Shown here: positions 55,041-63,910 of the stretch, one piece after another | Layout of the letters: every line of letters starts with the position of its first letter | Position numbering within the stretch: position 1 is the stretch's first letter | Source: Paenibacillus sp. 32O-W | Lineage (GTDB): Bacteria > Bacillota > Bacilli > Paenibacillales > NBRC-103111 | NCBI RefSeq assembly: GCF_007679495.1 | Contig: NZ_VEGP01000010.1 | Span: 1-64,000 of the forward strand | Direction: 5' to 3' | DNA length: 64,000 nucleotides | The notes under the pieces: generated by a model | Database searches by the model: none | Told to the model about the DNA's origin: nothing | The model's input: only the letters and a program-made list of their open reading frames with translations | Program-made: the position numbers and the translations under genes

Positions 55041-55119
55041 GACAAATGTAGAAAATATTCGCCAAACGTATTGACTATTATTTTTGACAAGTGTAAAATA
55101 TGAAAAAAAGACAATTGTC
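55041..55119 (+). promoter_or_regulatory. Promoter with three BlaI-type operator half-dyads
   Basis: TTGACT (55071-55076), 17 bases, TAAAAT (55094-55099) form the promoter. Three sites share GACA-nn-TGT(A/C): GACAAATGTA (55041), GACAAGTGTA (55086, in the spacer and -10) and GACAATTGTC (55110, at the transcription start). BlaI/MecI operators are TACA-nn-TGTA dyads, so this array fits repression by the BlaI-type protein encoded next. The ATG at 55100 lies at the end of the -10 box and cannot be the start. Confidence 0.82.
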
Positions 55120-55138
55120 AAAAAAGGAGTTGGAAGAC

Positions 55139-55516
55139 ATGAAAAATATAAAGAGGCTGCCCGATGCGGAATTTGAAATTATGAGGGTCGTCTGGGCTAA
55201 CGAACCGCCTATCACTACCGCGATGATTATGGAACAGCTCGGGAACGAGCGGAAATGGAAAGCCCCCACGGTTATTTCACTTATGATGCGTTTGGTGGAA
55301 CGGGGGTTTCTGCAAACCGAAAAGGAGGGGAAAGAGCGCACTTATTATCCGCTGATCCGTAAAGAGGAATACCTTGCCTTGGAAACGGAAAATTTTATGA
55401 AGCAATACCACGAGAATTCATTCCTGAGCTTTGTCAATACGCTGTACAACGGGAAACAGCTCTCGGACAAAGAGCTGGATGATTTGCTGAAATGGGCCAA
55501 GGAACGGAGGGAGTAA
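55139..55516 (+). CDS. BlaI/MecI-family repressor
   Basis: The 125-residue protein has the BlaI winged helix: MKNIKRLPDAEFEIMRVVWANEPPITTAMIMEQL at the N-terminus, KAPTVISLMMRLVERGFLQTEKEGK (recognition helix and wing) and a C-terminal dimerisation helix. AAAGGAG lies 10 bases before ATG 55139, and the promoter position excludes the ATG at 55100. In classical systems a BlaR1 protease triggers cleavage or release of BlaI; an M56 protease gene follows 3 bases after the stop, strongly indicating the same pairing. Controls the seven-gene operon by inference. Confidence 0.92.
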   Translation: MKNIKRLPDAEFEIMRVVWANEPPITTAMIMEQLGNERKWKAPTVISLMMRLVERGFLQTEKEGKERTYYPLIRKEEYLALETENFMKQYHENSFLSFVNTLYNGKQLSDKELDDLLKWAKERRE

Positions 55517-55519
55517 TTC

Positions 55520-56947
55520 TTGCAAAATTTATTGATTTCATTACTTGAGAGTTCGCTGGCCATGTCGGCTATTGCTCTTGTGTATATGGCTATTGCGCCT
55601 CTGCTCTCCAAGAAATTTACGGCTAAAGGACTCTACTATGCGTGGCTAGTCATTGTTGTCGGACTGATTATTCCATTCCGGTTCCACCCGCAAGCATCGG
55701 CTATTAATATAAATACGCTGATCCCCGGGCTGAAGGCGGCGAGCGGTTCCTTCGGGGAACATGCGGTTTCTGCCGCGACGGTTACCTCGCTCGTCATTCC
55801 GTGGTCTGTCCTTGCCGGTAGCCTATGGCTTGTAGGAGCGATCGTATTTATCGCCTATCATGCCGTTCGACACAGACGTTTTCTGAGAATGGTCAAGCGC
55901 TGGAGCGACGAGATCACTGCTCCGCAAGTCCTGAGCACACTGCAGGATGTTCGAACGAAGCTGGGAATCCGGCGGCAGATTGGGCTGAAGGTCTGTCCCG
56001 GCATTTCCAGTCCGATGCTGATGGGCTTTGCCCGTCCGGTCATCTTGCTTCCGGCGGTAAATCTCCCGGCAGATGAGCTTGAGCTCATTTTGCAGCACGA
56101 GCTGGTTCATTTCAAACGCGGAGATATTTGGTACAAAACGATTGTGTTTCTGGCGACCGCCCTGCACTGGTTCAATCCGTTCGTCTATATGATGGCAAGA
56201 GAAATCTCCGTCCAATGTGAAATCTCCTGCGACGAAGAAGTGGTCAAAAATACGGACAGGAACGGCCGGCAGCGGTATGTCGAAACCATTATCGGGCTGA
56301 TTAGAAAGCAGTCCCGGATGCAAACCGTGTTCTCAACTAATTTCTACGGAGGTAAACAGGGTATGAAGAACAGAATTTTGTCTATCATGGATTCCCGAAG
56401 CAAGAAATGGGGGATATCCATTGTGGCCGTCATCGTTATAGCAACGCTAAGCACGGGGATTGTGCTGAAGCTGAACACGGAGAATTCCGACAACGTGACC
56501 CCCCTGACAGCATCCGATGCGGAGGTAGGGGTGGAAAAGGAACGTCCGGATCCTCCGCTTACAGGTTCCACTTCACCGACGGGTTTGGATGGAGAAGTAG
56601 AAGGGGAAGGATCGGAGCCCGATCCGTCAGTGAACGGCAGCTTGTCAGGTGCTCCAAAGGAAAGCTTGGAGGAAGGAAGGGCTTCCGGGGATGGCGCATC
56701 GGTTCAAGGACCGAAGATGTTTCAATCCACACAGGATAATCTGGTAGCAGGGCCAAGCGGAGCGGCACCTGGACCTGAAGCTTCCATGAATGGCGCCTCG
56801 ACGCGTTTAATTGAGGGCAAAGGGGAGCCCGCTCCTGTGCGTGACACTTCTGCCGATGATTCAGCGAGTATAGTCGAGGTTAACCCGAATACGGTTAAGC
56901 AAGACCCGTCTTCCGAGCCCGGTGTCTTTAATTTAGTAAAGGATTGA
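55520..56947 (+). CDS. BlaR1-like M56 membrane metalloprotease lacking the penicillin-sensor domain
   Basis: The 475-residue protein has the BlaR1 membrane part: helices near residues 10-30, 37-55, 95-115, the gluzincin motif HELVHFKRGD (His193, Glu194, His197) before a further helix pair, and CEISCDEEVV giving the third zinc ligand Glu. Its membrane region ends with a helix near 298-317. The remaining 155 residues are a Ser/Gly/Pro/Glu-rich external tail with no SxxK penicillin-binding fold, unlike BlaR1/MecR1. TTG start at 55520 with GGAGGGAG upstream. It probably cleaves or releases the BlaI-type repressor on a signal other than beta-lactam. Confidence 0.88.
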   Translation: MQNLLISLLESSLAMSAIALVYMAIAPLLSKKFTAKGLYYAWLVIVVGLIIPFRFHPQASAININTLIPGLKAASGSFGEHAVSAATVTSLVIPWSVLAGSLWLVGAIVFIAYHAVRHRRFLRMVKRWSDEITAPQVLSTLQDVRTKLGIRRQIGLKVCPGISSPMLMGFARPVILLPAVNLPADELELILQHELVHFKRGDIWYKTIVFLATALHWFNPFVYMMAREISVQCEISCDEEVVKNTDRNGRQRYVETIIGLIRKQSRMQTVFSTNFYGGKQGMKNRILSIMDSRSKKWGISIVAVIVIATLSTGIVLKLNTENSDNVTPLTASDAEVGVEKERPDPPLTGSTSPTGLDGEVEGEGSEPDPSVNGSLSGAPKESLEEGRASGDGASVQGPKMFQSTQDNLVAGPSGAAPGPEASMNGASTRLIEGKGEPAPVRDTSADDSASIVEVNPNTVKQDPSSEPGVFNLVKD

Positions 56948-56986
56948 GAAAGACTGCGTAGAAGGAAATTCGAAAGGGTTGACAAT

Positions 56987-58048
56987 GTGCAAAAGACATG
57001 GATATTTAGGCTGGTAGTAGCTTTAGTCGCCGTTGTCATGCTGGCAGCCGGCTGTTCAACTAAAAATGCCGGGAAGGATGGATCAAGCGACATCAGCAAT
57101 ACCGATCCCAATCCATTTGAACTGGATGACAAGGATACCGTTGTTTTGGGCCATATTGGTCATGGACTGGCCAATCCGGAATTAGATGAAACGGGCGCGA
57201 GACTTCCCTTGCGCTATAGCGGCGGCGAATTAAAGATAGATTATACTGTAAATGCAGCCGGAAAGGCGAAAAATGTAGGCTTTCTTGTCTTCGTAGACGG
57301 AATCCCGCAGCCTTATAAAATTAATACTGCCGATGCTCCTTATGAGTATATGCACATCTTTGAGCTGGAGGGGGATGACGTGCAGACGCCTTTCTCCTTT
57401 ATCTTCACCCCGATCATCGGCAAGCAGGGGGAGACCTTGAGCGTCAGCATTGCCAGCGTATATAATCCGGCATTTATACCGGACATGAAAGAAACGAGTT
57501 CTTATGGAAGCTATCACGATACGTTGGAATCGATGTTTTCCCTTGTTTTTGACAAAGACGCGGAGGCTCTCGATGTTTCCTCTATCCCGCATAACGAATA
57601 TTTAAGTGATGTTCGCCTGTCGGCCGAACTGATCACGAAAGAGATGATGGAAACCCAGGGCGGTTTTGTAACGATAGATTCGGAGACTCTGGAGAAAAAT
57701 GTATTCAGCCGTTTGTATTTTGACGGGGCGGTTCTGTCGAAGGTCGACAATCTCCAGGTGAAGGACAGCGGCACCCTTCATGTCACCTTTCAAATATTCG
57801 GCCATCCCGGAGTGAGGTATAGAAATACGTTCTACATCAATCATAAACCTTTAATCGGCAAGGAAGGAAGCACTTTTGAAACGGTACTCGCCAAGGGCGA
57901 GGCGGCAGTGATCGACGCGGATATCGATTTAGGGAAACTGGAGGAACTCAATACGTTTTATGTCGTTTCGGTTCCGGTGAATGCCGCCGATTTCCCAGAT
58001 GATGTCGTTGTCTTGGAAAAAACAGCGTCCATCTTATTATATAAATGA
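56987..58048 (+). CDS. Lipoprotein of unknown function
   Basis: The 353-residue protein has a signal peptide with lipobox LAAGC (about residue 23), then Thr/Asn-rich linker and a beta-rich body with no recognised domain. VGFLVFVDGIPQPYKI and FSFIFTPIIGKQGETLSVSIASVYNP suggest Ig-like strands. GTG start at 56987 after AAAGGG. Third gene of the BlaI-M56 operon, 39 bases after the protease gene, so it may be the missing external sensor or a protective envelope factor. Function not established. Confidence 0.78.
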   Translation: MQKTWIFRLVVALVAVVMLAAGCSTKNAGKDGSSDISNTDPNPFELDDKDTVVLGHIGHGLANPELDETGARLPLRYSGGELKIDYTVNAAGKAKNVGFLVFVDGIPQPYKINTADAPYEYMHIFELEGDDVQTPFSFIFTPIIGKQGETLSVSIASVYNPAFIPDMKETSSYGSYHDTLESMFSLVFDKDAEALDVSSIPHNEYLSDVRLSAELITKEMMETQGGFVTIDSETLEKNVFSRLYFDGAVLSKVDNLQVKDSGTLHVTFQIFGHPGVRYRNTFYINHKPLIGKEGSTFETVLAKGEAAVIDADIDLGKLEELNTFYVVSVPVNAADFPDDVVVLEKTASILLYK

Positions 58049-58066
58049 ATGGAGACCAAGCGGCCT

Positions 58067-59281
58067 ATGAATAAGAAGCTGTTGATCGTCACATTACTTC
58101 TATCCGTATTTTTAGCTGCGGGATGCGCACAAAACAATGCGAATTCAGAACGTTCGATAGATCCGTCTCCCCGTACGGAAAGCCAGGCTAACAATAAAAC
58201 AGACGCACCCGATATGGCGGCGACTCCCGTCGTTTCCAAATTGAAATTGGAGAAGATCCAAGGCGACATCAAGAGCATTCATTACGCAGATGGCAATAAG
58301 GTGCTCATATCGGCCGACAAGCTGTATTTATATGACCTGGGCACGGGGAATGTTGTGGCGGAAGCCCCGCGAGAAGCATTCGAGGGAGAAAATTACTGGG
58401 TGATTGACAGCGGGTACGTTGCGGTCGGGGTAAAAATCAATACAGGCAAAAGCAACGGGAGTATGTTGACGACAAACGAAGGGATGGCCTACAGCGCCGT
58501 CTTCTATGACCGGGAGCTGAATAAACAATCCGAATTCCATTTCAGTTCATTGCTTGATGGCGATGACGTATTGTCTACCGACTCGTTTTCGTTTTCTTCC
58601 GATGGAAACCAGGTAGCTTATGCAACATTATCCGGCCTATATCTATATGATTTCAGCAAGGATAAGAGGACAACGGTCATCGATTTGCTCTCTGAAGATT
58701 ATAAGGGGCGCTCCGGCCTTGCCACGATTGAGCAAATCGGGTTCACGAACGAGGACAAGACTATTGCTTTCAAGGCGCAGAGCTTGGATGTCCCCGCTAT
58801 CCCCGGCAAGCCTTCTTTCGATACATGCGGTACAGTCAACACGGATGGCTCCGCACTATCCAATCGGACCTTCGACAATTACATATGCAAGGAACTGACG
58901 GCTTACAACAAGGTGCTATTCTTGGCAGAGGATTTTACGGTTCCGTCAGGAAAAATTCTGGTTATGGAGACTCCCGGCGGGACAACGAAGCTTCATACGT
59001 TGACGGAGAAGGGCGAAAGCGGATTTGTAACGGGCTCCGATTCGGGACGCTATTTCGCCACTTCGCTTGCAGACAAGAACGGCACCGGATGGAAAATTCG
59101 GGTATATCATACGGAAACCGGTAAGCTGGAAGCGGAGCAGCTCGTCTCGAGTGACGGGAAGGAGCTCTATATGGCCAGAGATCCGAAAATCAAGGTGATC
59201 GACGATATAAGGACTTGCATTGTGCTATTGGGATCAACAAAGGCGGATATTGAAACCAAAGTGGTGATCAGTCAGTTTTAA
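58067..59281 (+). CDS. Lipoprotein with beta-propeller-like body
   Basis: The 404-residue lipoprotein starts MNKKLLIVTLLLSVFLAAGC, with the lipobox at residue 17-20, a linker of about 45 residues, and a body with repeated blades such as DGNKVLISADKLYLYDLGTGNVV, SFSSDGNQVAYATLSGLYLYDFSKD and GRYFATSLADKNG..., characteristic of WD40-like/TolB propellers. ATG at 58049 is immediately after the previous stop; the ATG at 58067 gives a standard lipoprotein signal. Likely a binding or scaffolding protein of the outer membrane face. Family-level call only. Confidence 0.78.
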   Translation: MNKKLLIVTLLLSVFLAAGCAQNNANSERSIDPSPRTESQANNKTDAPDMAATPVVSKLKLEKIQGDIKSIHYADGNKVLISADKLYLYDLGTGNVVAEAPREAFEGENYWVIDSGYVAVGVKINTGKSNGSMLTTNEGMAYSAVFYDRELNKQSEFHFSSLLDGDDVLSTDSFSFSSDGNQVAYATLSGLYLYDFSKDKRTTVIDLLSEDYKGRSGLATIEQIGFTNEDKTIAFKAQSLDVPAIPGKPSFDTCGTVNTDGSALSNRTFDNYICKELTAYNKVLFLAEDFTVPSGKILVMETPGGTTKLHTLTEKGESGFVTGSDSGRYFATSLADKNGTGWKIRVYHTETGKLEAEQLVSSDGKELYMARDPKIKVIDDIRTCIVLLGSTKADIETKVVISQF

Positions 59282-59296
59282 TTTTGAAAACCGGGC

Positions 59297-59339
59297 GCTT
59301 TCTTCCTTTAAGTCCCAATTGTTCTTAGAAGAAGAAAGC
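59297..59339 (+). terminator. Intra-operon hairpin
   Basis: GCTTTCTTC pairs perfectly with GAAGAAAGC across a 25-base loop, followed by TGCTTTGTTTC. It sits in the only sizeable gap (86 bases) of the operon, between lipoprotein and ABC genes; it may attenuate downstream expression or be an mRNA end. Confidence 0.5.
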
Positions 59340-59367
59340 TGCTTTGTTTCATAGGAGGAACGGATGG

Positions 59368-60240
59368 GTGAAAGTAACCTTCAAAGGAATTTCCAAGCAG
59401 TATAAAGGCAAGTATGCGCTGAAAAACTTTACGTCCGAGCTGGAGAACGGGATTTATGGTTTGCTGGGGGCGAACGGTGCGGGAAAAACGACGCTGATTA
59501 ACATCTTTGTCGGCATTTTGAAAAGCGATGAGGGGCAAATATTGATCAATGGCGAGGATGTGCGGGGCTTGGGAATAGACTTTCTGTCCCATATCGGTTA
59601 TTTGCCGCAGTATCCGCAGTTTTACAAAAACTTTGAAGTGATGGATTTCTTGCGGTATATGTGTGTGCTTAAAGATATTCCCATGGAAAAGGGCGAGAAG
59701 AGGGCCAGGGAATTGCTGGAGATCGTCAATTTGAGCAGTGCCCATAATAAAAAGATCGGAGCGCTGTCCGGCGGAATGCGCCAGCGTGTCGGAATTGCAC
59801 AGGCAATGCTCGGCGCCCCGGATATTCTGATACTGGACGAGCCGACAGCCGGACTTGACCCACAGGAAAGGATCCGGTTCCGCAACCTGATTGCCAAATT
59901 TGCCGAGAACCGAATCGTATTATTGGCTACGCATATTGTCTCCGACATTGAATTTATCGCCAATCAAGTCATCCTGCTCAAGGACGGTCAGCTCGTGAAA
60001 CAGGATACGCCGCAGGCCCTAATGAGGGGAATGGAGGGGAAGGTTTGGAATGTAACGGCGACGGATGCGACGGTCGATGACAAGCTGAAACGCCTTAAAA
60101 TCAGCAATATGATGCGGGACCAGGAGAAAATTCTGTTAAGGGTGATTGCCGACGAGCAGCCGGATCCCCATGCTGTCCATGTGCAGGCGAATTTGGAGGA
60201 TGTTTTCTTATACTATTTCGGTGAGGGCGAGCAATGGTAA
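59368..60240 (+). CDS. ABC transporter ATP-binding protein
   Basis: The 290-residue ATPase has Walker A GANGAGKTTLIN (about residue 34), signature LSGGMRQRVGIAQAML, Walker B ILILDEPTAGLDPQ and H-loop LLATHIVSD, and a C-terminal extension of about 70 residues, as in DRA/CcmA-type exporters (drug or lantibiotic immunity). GTG at 59368 with AGGAGG 9 bases before; an ATG at 59364 is out of frame. It overlaps the first permease. Exporter polarity is inferred from the subfamily. Confidence 0.92.
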   Translation: MKVTFKGISKQYKGKYALKNFTSELENGIYGLLGANGAGKTTLINIFVGILKSDEGQILINGEDVRGLGIDFLSHIGYLPQYPQFYKNFEVMDFLRYMCVLKDIPMEKGEKRARELLEIVNLSSAHNKKIGALSGGMRQRVGIAQAMLGAPDILILDEPTAGLDPQERIRFRNLIAKFAENRIVLLATHIVSDIEFIANQVILLKDGQLVKQDTPQALMRGMEGKVWNVTATDATVDDKLKRLKISNMMRDQEKILLRVIADEQPDPHAVHVQANLEDVFLYYFGEGEQW

Positions 60241-61472
60241 AACTAATCGTTTATGAATGCCGCAAGCATTTCCTGAAAACGTCCGTTCTTCTGGCCGTGC
60301 TGCTTTTCTCCATCCTGAGCGTTGCCAAAATTTACAGCATCTACAATGGGAACTCGCTGCTTTCCAAAAACTATTCCGGCCCCGAGTGGAAGGGACTCTA
60401 TTGGGAGATGTACGAGGACTTCGGAGGAAAAATAACGGATGAAAAAATCAGACGGCTCATGGCCATATATGGACCTCTTGAGAAACAAACGGCCGATCGT
60501 ACGGCAAGCACGCGAACGGATAACCCCGATACCTACACCGGAAATGTCTACAACGACCGCCTTTTCTTCGATTGGTGCTTTGTGAAGCCCATGAAGTATG
60601 CCTATATGTACAGAAATCATGCTAACGATATTGTGACTGCGGCCAAGGATAATATGGATTTTTATGAATCGGTCGGCAATGGGTACGAATACCGAAAGAA
60701 TGCCGCCATTGCGGAGCTTTTTAAAGAACGGGCTATATCCCACTTTTCCTATACGGAAATGTACCAATATTACTTGCATTATGATTTTTCCGCGTTTCTA
60801 GTTTTGCTGATTTGTCTGTACGGCTTAATGAGCGTATTTGTAACCGAGAAGGAAACGGAGATGGATACCCTCTTATTGACTACGAAGGCAGGGGGAAGAC
60901 GAACGGTTATCGCCAAGCTTGCCGCTTCTGCCATCTTCATATGCATCGTCTGCTCCTGGTTCTGGCTGATTGATTTCGCGGCATTTTCCGGGATCTTCGG
61001 TTCTCTGGAAGCCGCTTCCTCTCCTCTGTACGCCGTCGAGAATTTCGCAAACTCATCGATTGCTGTGAGCCTGGGCCAATACGCCCTGCTGTCCGGCTTG
61101 GTGAAAACGGTGGGAATTCTCGTGCTCGGCCTGACGTTTCTGCTCGTTTCCTGCCTGTTTAAAAATGCCCTGCTGCCTTTTATCATCAGCCTGTTCTCCG
61201 CCTTCGGACTGATCTATATGGAGGAAGCGTACATGGGCTCCGGACACGTGCTGTTCAAAGTGATCAACCCGTTTGTGCTGGTCGTCAATCGGGAGCTGTT
61301 TCGCAAGACGGAATTTGTCAATCTGTTTGGTTATCCTGTGTACAGCTATCTGTCGGCCCTCTTGTTTGCGGCCGTCTGGGGGACGGTATGTATTGTGGCC
61401 ATTGCGATGCTGGTCCGCAAGAATGCTCAATCCGGAAAAGGGGGGAAGAAGCGTGTCCTTGTGGATTTATGA
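60234..61472 (+). CDS. ABC transporter permease with large external domain
   Basis: The 412-residue protein has an N-terminal helix (LKTSVLLAVLLFSILSVAKIY), an external domain of about 150 residues (Tyr/Asp-rich), and five further helices: FLVLLICLYGLMSVFVTEKE, AKLAASAIFICIVCSWFWLIDF, LSGLVKTVGILVLGLTFLLVSC, LPFIISLFSAFGLIYM and YLSALLFAAVWGTVCIVAIAML. ETEMDTLLLTTKAGGR (about residue 205) fits the coupling loop of ABC-2-like permeases. Overlaps the ATPase gene by 7 bases and the next gene by 20. No family symbol. Confidence 0.85.
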   Translation: MVKLIVYECRKHFLKTSVLLAVLLFSILSVAKIYSIYNGNSLLSKNYSGPEWKGLYWEMYEDFGGKITDEKIRRLMAIYGPLEKQTADRTASTRTDNPDTYTGNVYNDRLFFDWCFVKPMKYAYMYRNHANDIVTAAKDNMDFYESVGNGYEYRKNAAIAELFKERAISHFSYTEMYQYYLHYDFSAFLVLLICLYGLMSVFVTEKETEMDTLLLTTKAGGRRTVIAKLAASAIFICIVCSWFWLIDFAAFSGIFGSLEAASSPLYAVENFANSSIAVSLGQYALLSGLVKTVGILVLGLTFLLVSCLFKNALLPFIISLFSAFGLIYMEEAYMGSGHVLFKVINPFVLVVNRELFRKTEFVNLFGYPVYSYLSALLFAAVWGTVCIVAIAMLVRKNAQSGKGGKKRVLVDL

Positions 61473-63498
61473 GATGAAAAAAATGTTTTTCTATCAGAAG
61501 GGCCTGCTGTTCATCGGATTGTATTTCGTTATCAGCACGGCGGCCCTGATTGCTTTCGACACGCCCGTCAACCCGGATGTGGAATTGAATGCTCCGCAGT
61601 ATTTTTATTACCTGGATCAAGTCCGCGGTCCATCCTCGGAGGAAAGCGAACGGTTCTTGACGGATGAATCCCGTCGAATTTCCGACGCAAACGTCGCCTT
61701 GCGAAAAGCATACGACGATCATTATGACAGGAACCTTGCGGAGGATGAACTGGTGGCCATAACCCGTCCGCTGGAGGACATCGTCCGGAATGAAAGAGGC
61801 TTTAACCTTGTTTTTGACCAATATTCGTATATTCGCGAGCAGCCGGACAACCGGTATTTTCTGTATACGAACGGCTGGGACGGGCTTCTGTCGCATGACA
61901 GCCTGGATTTGTTCTTTCTTTTATTGCTGCTCGTACTCGTGGCTCCGGTGTTTTGCTACGAGTTTGAAAGCAAGATGGATCCGCTCATCCTTACCGTCAA
62001 GAAAGGAACAAGGGTTCAGGCTGTCACTAAGATAGGTCTTGTGCTGGCAACCGTTGCCGTGCTCTGTCTATTCACCGAGGGCTTAAGATACGGTTTCTTT
62101 CATTTCAAATACGGCTTGGATAATGGAAGTTATACGCTGCAAAGCTTGTCCTATTTTGGAACGTCTTCCAAGGATGTCACGCTGTTCGACACATTTGTAT
62201 GGTTGGCGGTGTGTAAGCTGTTCGGCTATCTAAGCTTTGCCATGCTCATTATGTTTGCTGCGGTATATATAAAGAAATACGCGCTGACCCTATTCGCCAG
62301 CACTGCCGTGGTCCTGCTCCCCTATTTCGGATTCCGCCTGGAATCCTCGAAATACTGGTTGCCGGGGCCGCTCGGGTTTATGATTTCCACGGGATTCTTC
62401 CGAGGGAACGAGTATGAGTACAACATCTATACGGAGCAGAAGGACGTCGTATTTCAGGAAGTTTCCGGCGCGGCGTGGATCCTGTTGTTTGCCGTTACGT
62501 TGTGCATCGGTATTGGCATGTTTATTGGAATCATGTTTCGGCATAGGAATGTATGGGGAGCCGGCCAACGAAGTCACCGGCTGAGGCCGGTCGGTCTTAC
62601 GCTCATCCTTAGTTTGGCCGCATCCGCGTTATCCGGCTGCGCCTCTAATGGAGAAGAGGGGAACTATGATATTTATAACTCCTCTTCCAAAAGGTCGTTT
62701 GAGAATGAGCGCTATCGGTTTTATGCAGATGAAACGATTATGTTCGAGGATAAGGAAACCGGGGAGCAAGAAAACTTGATCCGAAACCCGCTGCAATCAT
62801 CCACCAAGGTCAGAGATGTTATTTACGGCAACGGTTCGCTTGTTTACTACATGAAGTATGATTTTGACAAGTCAAAGCTTCGGGAAACGGTTGACCGATT
62901 TTCGGTTATAGAAGTAGATACGGCGACCTTTGAGGAGAGAATTGTTTTCGAAAAAAACTTGAACGCAGATAGAGACCATTTTTTGGGGCTGAATAAAACC
63001 TCCGTGTCCGATGAAGTTTTCTTCATGACAGTAGACTCTTTTTTTATGGACGAGCGCAGCATCTACCTAATCGGCGAGGGGGAGATCAGGCGGGTAAGTA
63101 AACTAACGGGCAACGTGAGTGTTATCGTCCAATCGCGGGTGATGAGAAGTGTCGCTTTTGACGGCCGGAATATTTATTATGTCAATGACAAATCCGAGGT
63201 GGCCAAGTACGATACGAAGACCGATTCGGAAACGGTTATTCCTGATCTTATAACGGAATATTTTGTGTTGACCGATACGGAACTGCTTTATATCAATCGC
63301 AAAGATAAGCAAAAAATCTATGCCATGAATTTGGGTGATTTTTCAACTCGCAAAATTACGGATAAATCCGTCCTAACCTTCACTTTCGACGGGAACTATA
63401 TTTACTATGAAAGTAAGGCAGACCTTAAGAAATATCGAATCGACCGGGACGGACAAGAGGAGACGCTTATCCCAACCGATAAAGGAATACGGAACTAA
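61453..63498 (+). CDS. ABC permease fused to a C-terminal beta-propeller-like domain
   Basis: The 681-residue protein has two parts. Residues 1-375 are a second permease, with helices at about 15-35, 150-175, 195-215, 255-300 and 338-360 and the loop CYEFESKMDPLILTVKKG. Residues 376-398 form another hydrophobic stretch ending ASALSGC, which looks exactly like a lipoprotein signal with lipobox, followed by about 285 residues of DUF5050/TolB-like blades (GRNIYYVNDKSEVAKYDTKT, NRKDKQKIYAMNLGDFSTRK). One open frame, no stop. GTG start at 61453 with GGGGGAAGAAGC. Either a natural fusion or two genes joined by loss of a stop. Confidence 0.85.
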   Translation: MSLWIYEMKKMFFYQKGLLFIGLYFVISTAALIAFDTPVNPDVELNAPQYFYYLDQVRGPSSEESERFLTDESRRISDANVALRKAYDDHYDRNLAEDELVAITRPLEDIVRNERGFNLVFDQYSYIREQPDNRYFLYTNGWDGLLSHDSLDLFFLLLLLVLVAPVFCYEFESKMDPLILTVKKGTRVQAVTKIGLVLATVAVLCLFTEGLRYGFFHFKYGLDNGSYTLQSLSYFGTSSKDVTLFDTFVWLAVCKLFGYLSFAMLIMFAAVYIKKYALTLFASTAVVLLPYFGFRLESSKYWLPGPLGFMISTGFFRGNEYEYNIYTEQKDVVFQEVSGAAWILLFAVTLCIGIGMFIGIMFRHRNVWGAGQRSHRLRPVGLTLILSLAASALSGCASNGEEGNYDIYNSSSKRSFENERYRFYADETIMFEDKETGEQENLIRNPLQSSTKVRDVIYGNGSLVYYMKYDFDKSKLRETVDRFSVIEVDTATFEERIVFEKNLNADRDHFLGLNKTSVSDEVFFMTVDSFFMDERSIYLIGEGEIRRVSKLTGNVSVIVQSRVMRSVAFDGRNIYYVNDKSEVAKYDTKTDSETVIPDLITEYFVLTDTELLYINRKDKQKIYAMNLGDFSTRKITDKSVLTFTFDGNYIYYESKADLKKYRIDRDGQEETLIPTDKGIRN

Positions 63499-63567: not shown

Positions 63568-63590
63568 AAAACGCTGCAAAGCGTTTTTTT
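63568..63590 (+). terminator. Terminator of the BlaI-M56-ABC operon
   Basis: AAAACGCT and AGCGTTTT pair around GCAA, followed by TTT to 63590. Confidence 0.88.
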
Positions 63591-63750
63591 CATATTTAAA
63601 TTCGGACGTTTTAGCTGATAGTGCCTCTTTTAATCAGAAGGCTTTCCTAATATCCAGTTTGCGATTTTCAGCACCGGAGACTCTCGTATGATGTGAACTC
63701 TTTCGGGATAGCCCGGTCATCCGCCGGATCGGGTAAAAGACAAACAAAAC

Positions 63751-63910
63751 TGCAGGTCTTTTAGGGGGAAAAGCCGCGCGATACCTAATTCTAAAGCGAT
63801 AGTGCAGGTCTTTTTTGGAAAAAGTCGCGAAATGCTTAATTCTAGAGCGATAGTGCAGGTCTTTGGAGCGATTTTTGCGAAATGGCCACATTTGGTCAAA
63901 AAGACCTGCA
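63751..63910. repeat. Tandem TGCAGGTCTT units of about 50 bp closed by an inverted copy
   Basis: TGCAGGTCTT occurs at 63751, 63803 and 63853 (spacing 52 and 50). The units share GAAAA-AG-CGCG and TAATTCTA-AGCGATAG. The last one is closed by AAGACCTGCA (63901-63910), so it can fold into a hairpin. Confidence 0.82.

Follow-up and report, generated by a model that had tools for sequence, protein, structure and literature searches.

The closest described counterparts of the locus considered here are the BlaI–BlaR1 and MecI–MecR1 systems, in which a repressor and a membrane metalloprotease are encoded by paired genes at the head of an operon, and in which operators with a core (ACANNTGT) that we take to be that of MecI, BlaI and CopY operators lie over the promoter. 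The scissile bond of MecI is an Asn–Phe pair. The copper repressors CopY and TcrY have an operator core that is the same as this one. Partial parallels are also offered by the LanFEG, DrrAB and Ytr-type ABC transporters, and by Lactococcin 972-type loci, where a small Sec-secreted beta protein is encoded near ABC transporter and membrane protein genes, an arrangement seen in relatives of our locus though not in the window itself.

The window, by which we mean the whole stretch of 64,000 nucleotides from Paenibacillus sp. 32O-W that was analysed, contains seven contiguous, co-directional genes (55139–63498, + strand) with close spacing or short overlaps, the widest intergenic gap being ~86 nt, 5′ of the ATPase gene. 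The order runs from a BlaI-family repressor through an M56 protease, two lipoproteins (Lp1 and Lp2) and a DrrA-like ATPase to permease 1 and permease 2. The operon thus resembles the BlaI–BlaR1 and MecI–MecR1 systems in its repressor family, its protease family, the operator core over its promoter and the paired genes at its head, but differs in a cargo that consists of lipoproteins and an ABC transporter. Its features are as follows.

55041..55050, + strand: predicted operator O1, GACAAATGTA; BlaI/MecI/CopY-type core, kept upstream of blaI in related loci
55071..55099, + strand: predicted promoter, TTGACT-17-TAAAAT; −35 and −10 boxes align across 8 loci
55086..55095, + strand: predicted operator O2, GACAAGTGTA; between the −35 and −10 boxes, overlapping the −10 box by two bases
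55110..55119, + strand: predicted operator O3, GACAATTGTC; between the −10 box and the ribosome site
55139..55516, + strand: blaI-type repressor gene; 125 aa, Penicillinase_R E=1.9e-27, matches MecI and BlaI structures
55520..56947, + strand: M56 membrane metalloprotease; 475 aa, Peptidase_M56 E=4.5e-56
56987..58048, + strand: lipoprotein 1 (Lp1); 353 aa, LAAGC lipobox and conservation
58049..59281, + strand: lipoprotein 2 (Lp2); probable start ATG 58067, LAAGC lipobox and homologues
59368..60240, + strand: ABC ATPase, DrrA/GldA-like; ABC_tran E=4.9e-30
60234..61472, + strand: permease 1; 412 aa, kept in every cassette locus
61453..63498, + strand: permease 2 fused to a lipoprotein-like domain; internal lipobox, DUF5050 match
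63568..63587, + strand: Rho-independent terminator-like hairpin, followed by a T run

The most likely start of blaI is ATG 55139, which is preceded by an AAGGAG ribosome site; a start at 55100 was rejected, as it would fall immediately after the −10 box. The ATPase gene probably begins at GTG 59368. The upstream neighbour of the operon is an unrelated phosphoglycerate mutase gene, and the sequence 3′ of the operon (63745–63910) contains repeated GATAGTGCAGGTCTTT-like stretches. A prior sequence-only reading had proposed a seven-gene operon here, and this is confirmed both by the contiguity of the genes and by the recurrence of their order in other genera, at ~47–96% protein identity.

The evidence for BlaI-type control lies in the promoter region, where O1, O2 and O3 are GACANNTGT sites of the BlaI/MecI type that flank and overlap the operon promoter; the start that had previously been given to the locus, 55041, coincides exactly with the first base of O1. 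Across the eight regions upstream of blaI there are 17 exact cores versus 0.5 expected (2000 first-order shuffles, maximum 4 cores), and the next 185 nt upstream of these regions contain none. The sites are not uniformly preserved, as none of the Virgibacillus operators is an exact core, and O1 is degenerate in Candidatus Carbobacillus and in genome G347. The extended pattern TTWNGACANNTGTNRAA has only three matches in the whole genome, one of which is O2. The repressor itself scores 96 bits against Penicillinase_R (PF03965; cut-off 22.6) and has three predicted sites at its own promoter, as expected of the BlaI/MecI family. Its best NCBIfam score, below cut-off, is to CopY_TcrY, from whose copper systems this locus differs in that the operon has no copper ATPase and the repressor is paired with an M56 protease. 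Because the predicted operators lie at the promoter and are found again before blaI in related loci, autorepression of the operon by BlaI is strongly supported at the sequence level, and the proposal that a BlaI-type repressor controls an ABC transporter and lipoprotein cargo gains support from the same three conserved sites. The Asn–Phe pair of MecI is not conserved and aligns to Thr–Leu in the window repressor, so the cleavage site of this BlaI may differ.

The second gene encodes a protease of the M56/BlaR1 type, with a Peptidase_M56 domain (190.6 bits) and an HELVH motif at residues 193–197. Only its residues 14–310 align with BlaR1 (residues 11–319), and the tail that follows the last membrane helix varies among orthologues both in length and in sequence. 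Unlike BlaR1 and MecR1, it lacks a transpeptidase sensor (no Transpeptidase match in Pfam), and no sensor domain was identified on it.

The cargo is less easily placed in known families. Lp1, Lp2 and permease 1 have no family match in Pfam or NCBIfam. Lp1 is predicted to form Ig-like beta domains in a low-confidence model (pLDDT 64), with RbmA and WxLIP among the matrix or surface proteins that its fold weakly matches, and a sequence search of the PDB returned nothing convincing for Lp1 or for the secreted protein described below. By BLAST, Lp2 is unrelated both to the lipoprotein of the distant locus L066 and to the end domain of permease 2. In NCBIfam the ATPase scores, below cut-off, against TIGR01188, TIGR03522 and TIGR03740, which include models of DrrA and of lantibiotic-protection ATPases, and thereby resembles the LanFEG, DrrAB and Ytr-type transporters, from which the operon departs in that its permeases match no family and the second is fused to a lipoprotein-like domain; PADLOC returned generic ATPase matches only. 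Of the two permeases previously proposed, the second is a permease that carries a lipoprotein-like domain at its C-terminus. All 11 of its homologues share a succession of permease, basic stretch, hydrophobic stretch, Gly–Cys and an extracytoplasmic domain containing the DUF5050 match; the Gly–Cys of the lipobox is invariant (11/11), its Cys falling at 62638–62640 in the window, where the Pfam DUF5050 match occupies the protein end (63118–63474). Judged from these sequences, the fusion looks like a permease with an embedded lipoprotein signal, and we infer signal peptidase II cleavage within it. At locus L028 (7027–7530), a gene 3′ of permease 2 encodes a lipoprotein whose first ~50 residues are nearly those of Lp1 and whose body differs.

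The full order BlaI–M56–Lp1–Lp2–ATPase–Perm1–Perm2 also occurs in Paenibacillus sp. J2TS4, Paenibacillus sp. MSJ-34 and P. pini, and likewise in Virgibacillus proomii, Siminovitchia thermophila and genome G347. In Candidatus Carbobacillus the cassette is spread over two contigs with an interrupted M56 gene, and in P. pini Lp1 is present as two overlapping frames, perhaps because of a frameshift. The conserved co-occurrence of BlaI, M56 and ABC genes that had been anticipated is thus found in Paenibacillus, Virgibacillus and Siminovitchia, and across the two Carbobacillus contigs. Strong cassette matches are nonetheless patchy, occurring in five of 395 genomes order-wide (the window included) and two of 399 class-wide, and even J2TS4, the nearest relative of the window, has different flanking genes. 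Given this patchy distribution and the differing chromosomal places, the cassette probably moves horizontally. Plasmids searched with Lp1 and the secreted protein, phages searched with Lp1 and viral contigs searched with the secreted protein contained no relatives. The cassettes of genomes G275, G380 and G200 lack BlaI–M56, and these genomes contain no close copy of the window BlaI; two cassette relatives have a sigma factor in place of the pair. Homologous sigma factors (34–51% identical) occur in G275, G380, G059 and G061, those of the last two being near-copies.

Among 298 genomes of the order, no BlaI outside the cassette exceeds 70% identity to that of the window, whereas inside the cassette the values are 76–94%. 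These outside relatives (51–70% identical) pair with M56 proteins near different genes: a penicillin-binding protein (PBP), a MoxR–DUF58–transglutaminase cluster, or sigma factors with secreted proteins. This variety of cargos suggests that BlaI–M56 acts in these bacteria as a modular switch for a range of envelope functions. A canonical locus, with BlaI, a BlaR1 that has the transpeptidase sensor and a MecA_N-type PBP, lies on contig C152 (L037) of the same genome. No beta-lactamase or PBP2a-like target is present in the window operon and none was seen in the orthologous operons, as the sequence-only reading had held of the window; a non-beta-lactam cargo is less unusual than that reading supposed, as related pairs have varied envelope cargos. 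Within open-access papers we found no report of an ABC transporter and lipoprotein operon controlled by BlaI–M56.

Several of these other pairs have features of their own. At L091 (52–7161), BlaI is accompanied by two very large M56 proteins and an adjoining PBP gene, and the M56 protein scanned there has ankyrin repeats and a copper amine oxidase N-terminal domain. At L093 (9928–13171) and L094 (10362–13535), BlaI–M56 lies near a sigma factor and a divergent, secreted-looking protein of ~225 aa with no family. At L089 (1924–8149) and L095, the pair precedes genes for a MoxR ATPase, a DUF58 protein and a transglutaminase (families checked in L089).

A gene for a small Sec-secreted protein adjoins the cassette in six of the 10 full-cassette genomes searched; it occurs in two of ~294 other genomes sampled in the order, both times beside Lp1 (Fisher P=5.5e-9, relatedness uncorrected). 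Its position varies: in P. pini and Carbobacillus the gene precedes blaI, and in Siminovitchia it follows permease 2. In G275, G380 and G200 it adjoins Lp1 and has a Sec-type signal peptide; in G059 and G061 the secreted protein and Lp1 are accompanied by a divergent sigma factor alone. In G275 the pair of secreted protein and Lp1 is tandemly duplicated, a decayed secreted protein and broken Lp1 being followed by an intact pair. Five cassette loci lack the secreted protein, including the window, although J2TS4 was covered near the operon only; it is absent from the window genome, which therefore does not itself pair the cassette with a secreted protein in the manner of a bacteriocin/immunity locus. 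In a tree built from 11 loci, three of the forks lack support. At L066 and L067, whose ABC genes are distant relatives of those in the cassette, genes for a small secreted protein, a lipoprotein, a permease and an ATPase are arranged likewise, and the small secreted proteins encoded there look unrelated.

The secreted protein has no convincing match in Pfam, NCBIfam or PHROGs, in which it differs from Lactococcin 972-type proteins; bacteriocin families of Pfam and NCBIfam gave nothing at E values up to 0.5, so it is not placed with Lactococcin 972. For its mature form, a model built on a two-sequence alignment (pLDDT 75) predicts a beta sandwich of eight strands with an Ig/FnIII-like fold, which is common and uninformative on function. 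There is no BlaI operator at the secreted-protein genes that adjoin BlaI-type cassettes, and BlaI thus seemingly does not co-regulate them.

Around the secreted-protein gene, five loci (L027, L030, L033, L056, L058) have a long hairpin just 3′ of it (~−35 to −50 kcal/mol within 110 nt), of similar sequence in several loci, and three (L030, L056, L027) have possible very short hydrophobic leader frames behind GGAGG ~85 nt 5′ of it. In G200 the cassette is followed (L036:14–3571) by genes for a sigma factor, another small secreted-looking protein and two FtsX-like-looking membrane proteins.

We give about an even chance to the reading that this is a mobile bacteriocin-like/immunity cassette, kept in the window as an inducible protection module. 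A BlaI-family dimer would bind the three promoter operators and repress the whole operon, until an envelope signal, perhaps relayed via the lipoproteins, activates the sensor-less M56, which by the precedent of BlaR1 and BlaI would remove the repressor; the derepressed operon would then supply surface lipoproteins and an ABC transporter that guard the envelope. The sequence-only reading had supposed that the signal is an envelope-active peptide or wall damage, which goes beyond what the sequences show. The likeliest role would be immunity to the small secreted Ig-like, bacteriocin-like protein or to a similar secreted factor, and the window lineage, which has no gene for the secreted protein, would keep the module as inducible stand-alone protection. 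We infer an immunity role because in relatives the secreted protein is coupled to the cassette and most of all to Lp1, and the minimal units of secreted protein and Lp1, the duplicated pairs and the cassettes without the secreted protein together resemble bacteriocin and orphan-immunity loci. A more ambitious form, in which small Ig-like secreted antibacterial proteins make up a new family, a BlaI–M56 proteolytic switch governs immunity to them, and signal peptidase II cuts permease 2, as a polyprotein, into a transporter subunit and a surface lipoprotein, is put forward tentatively and is on balance unlikely.

The main alternative is general envelope-stress detoxification, with BceAB, LanFEG and Ytr systems as analogues, where BlaI–M56 would sense wall or membrane damage and induce the removal of antibiotics or lantibiotics, the secreted protein being a non-toxin neighbour. 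This is a real possibility, if somewhat doubtful: the affinities of the ATPase, the five cassettes without the secreted protein and the related BlaI–M56 pairs near other envelope functions (PBP, MoxR/DUF58/transglutaminase) all accord with it, but it leaves aside how strongly the secreted protein is linked to Lp1 and the cassette, minimal and duplicated pairs included. A further alternative is surface assembly, with the lipoproteins and ABC transporter displaying or maturing a secreted structural or matrix protein and BlaI–M56 serving as an assembly-stress switch, an idea suggested by the predicted Ig-like beta structure of both Lp1 and the secreted protein and by the weak RbmA and WxLIP matches of Lp1. 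We think it rather improbable, as the secreted protein, equipped with a Sec signal peptide of its own, would not need ABC export, and as the window genome and others carry the cassette without it. Least of all do we credit a chance neighbourhood of a BlaI–M56 pair and an ABC operon, which has a very slight probability: related pairs do occur with different cargo and some cassettes lack the pair, but order and operators are conserved in several genera, and in the orthologous genomes we did not find the pair beside a beta-lactamase with the ABC genes elsewhere.

The locus extends BlaI–M56 signalling beyond beta-lactams to an ABC transporter and lipoprotein cassette with mapped, conserved predicted operators, and these make the signal of sensor-less M56 proteins testable. 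Two further leads are an unnamed family of small secreted proteins, to which a lipoprotein is linked, and a lipoprotein that may be released from inside a permease.
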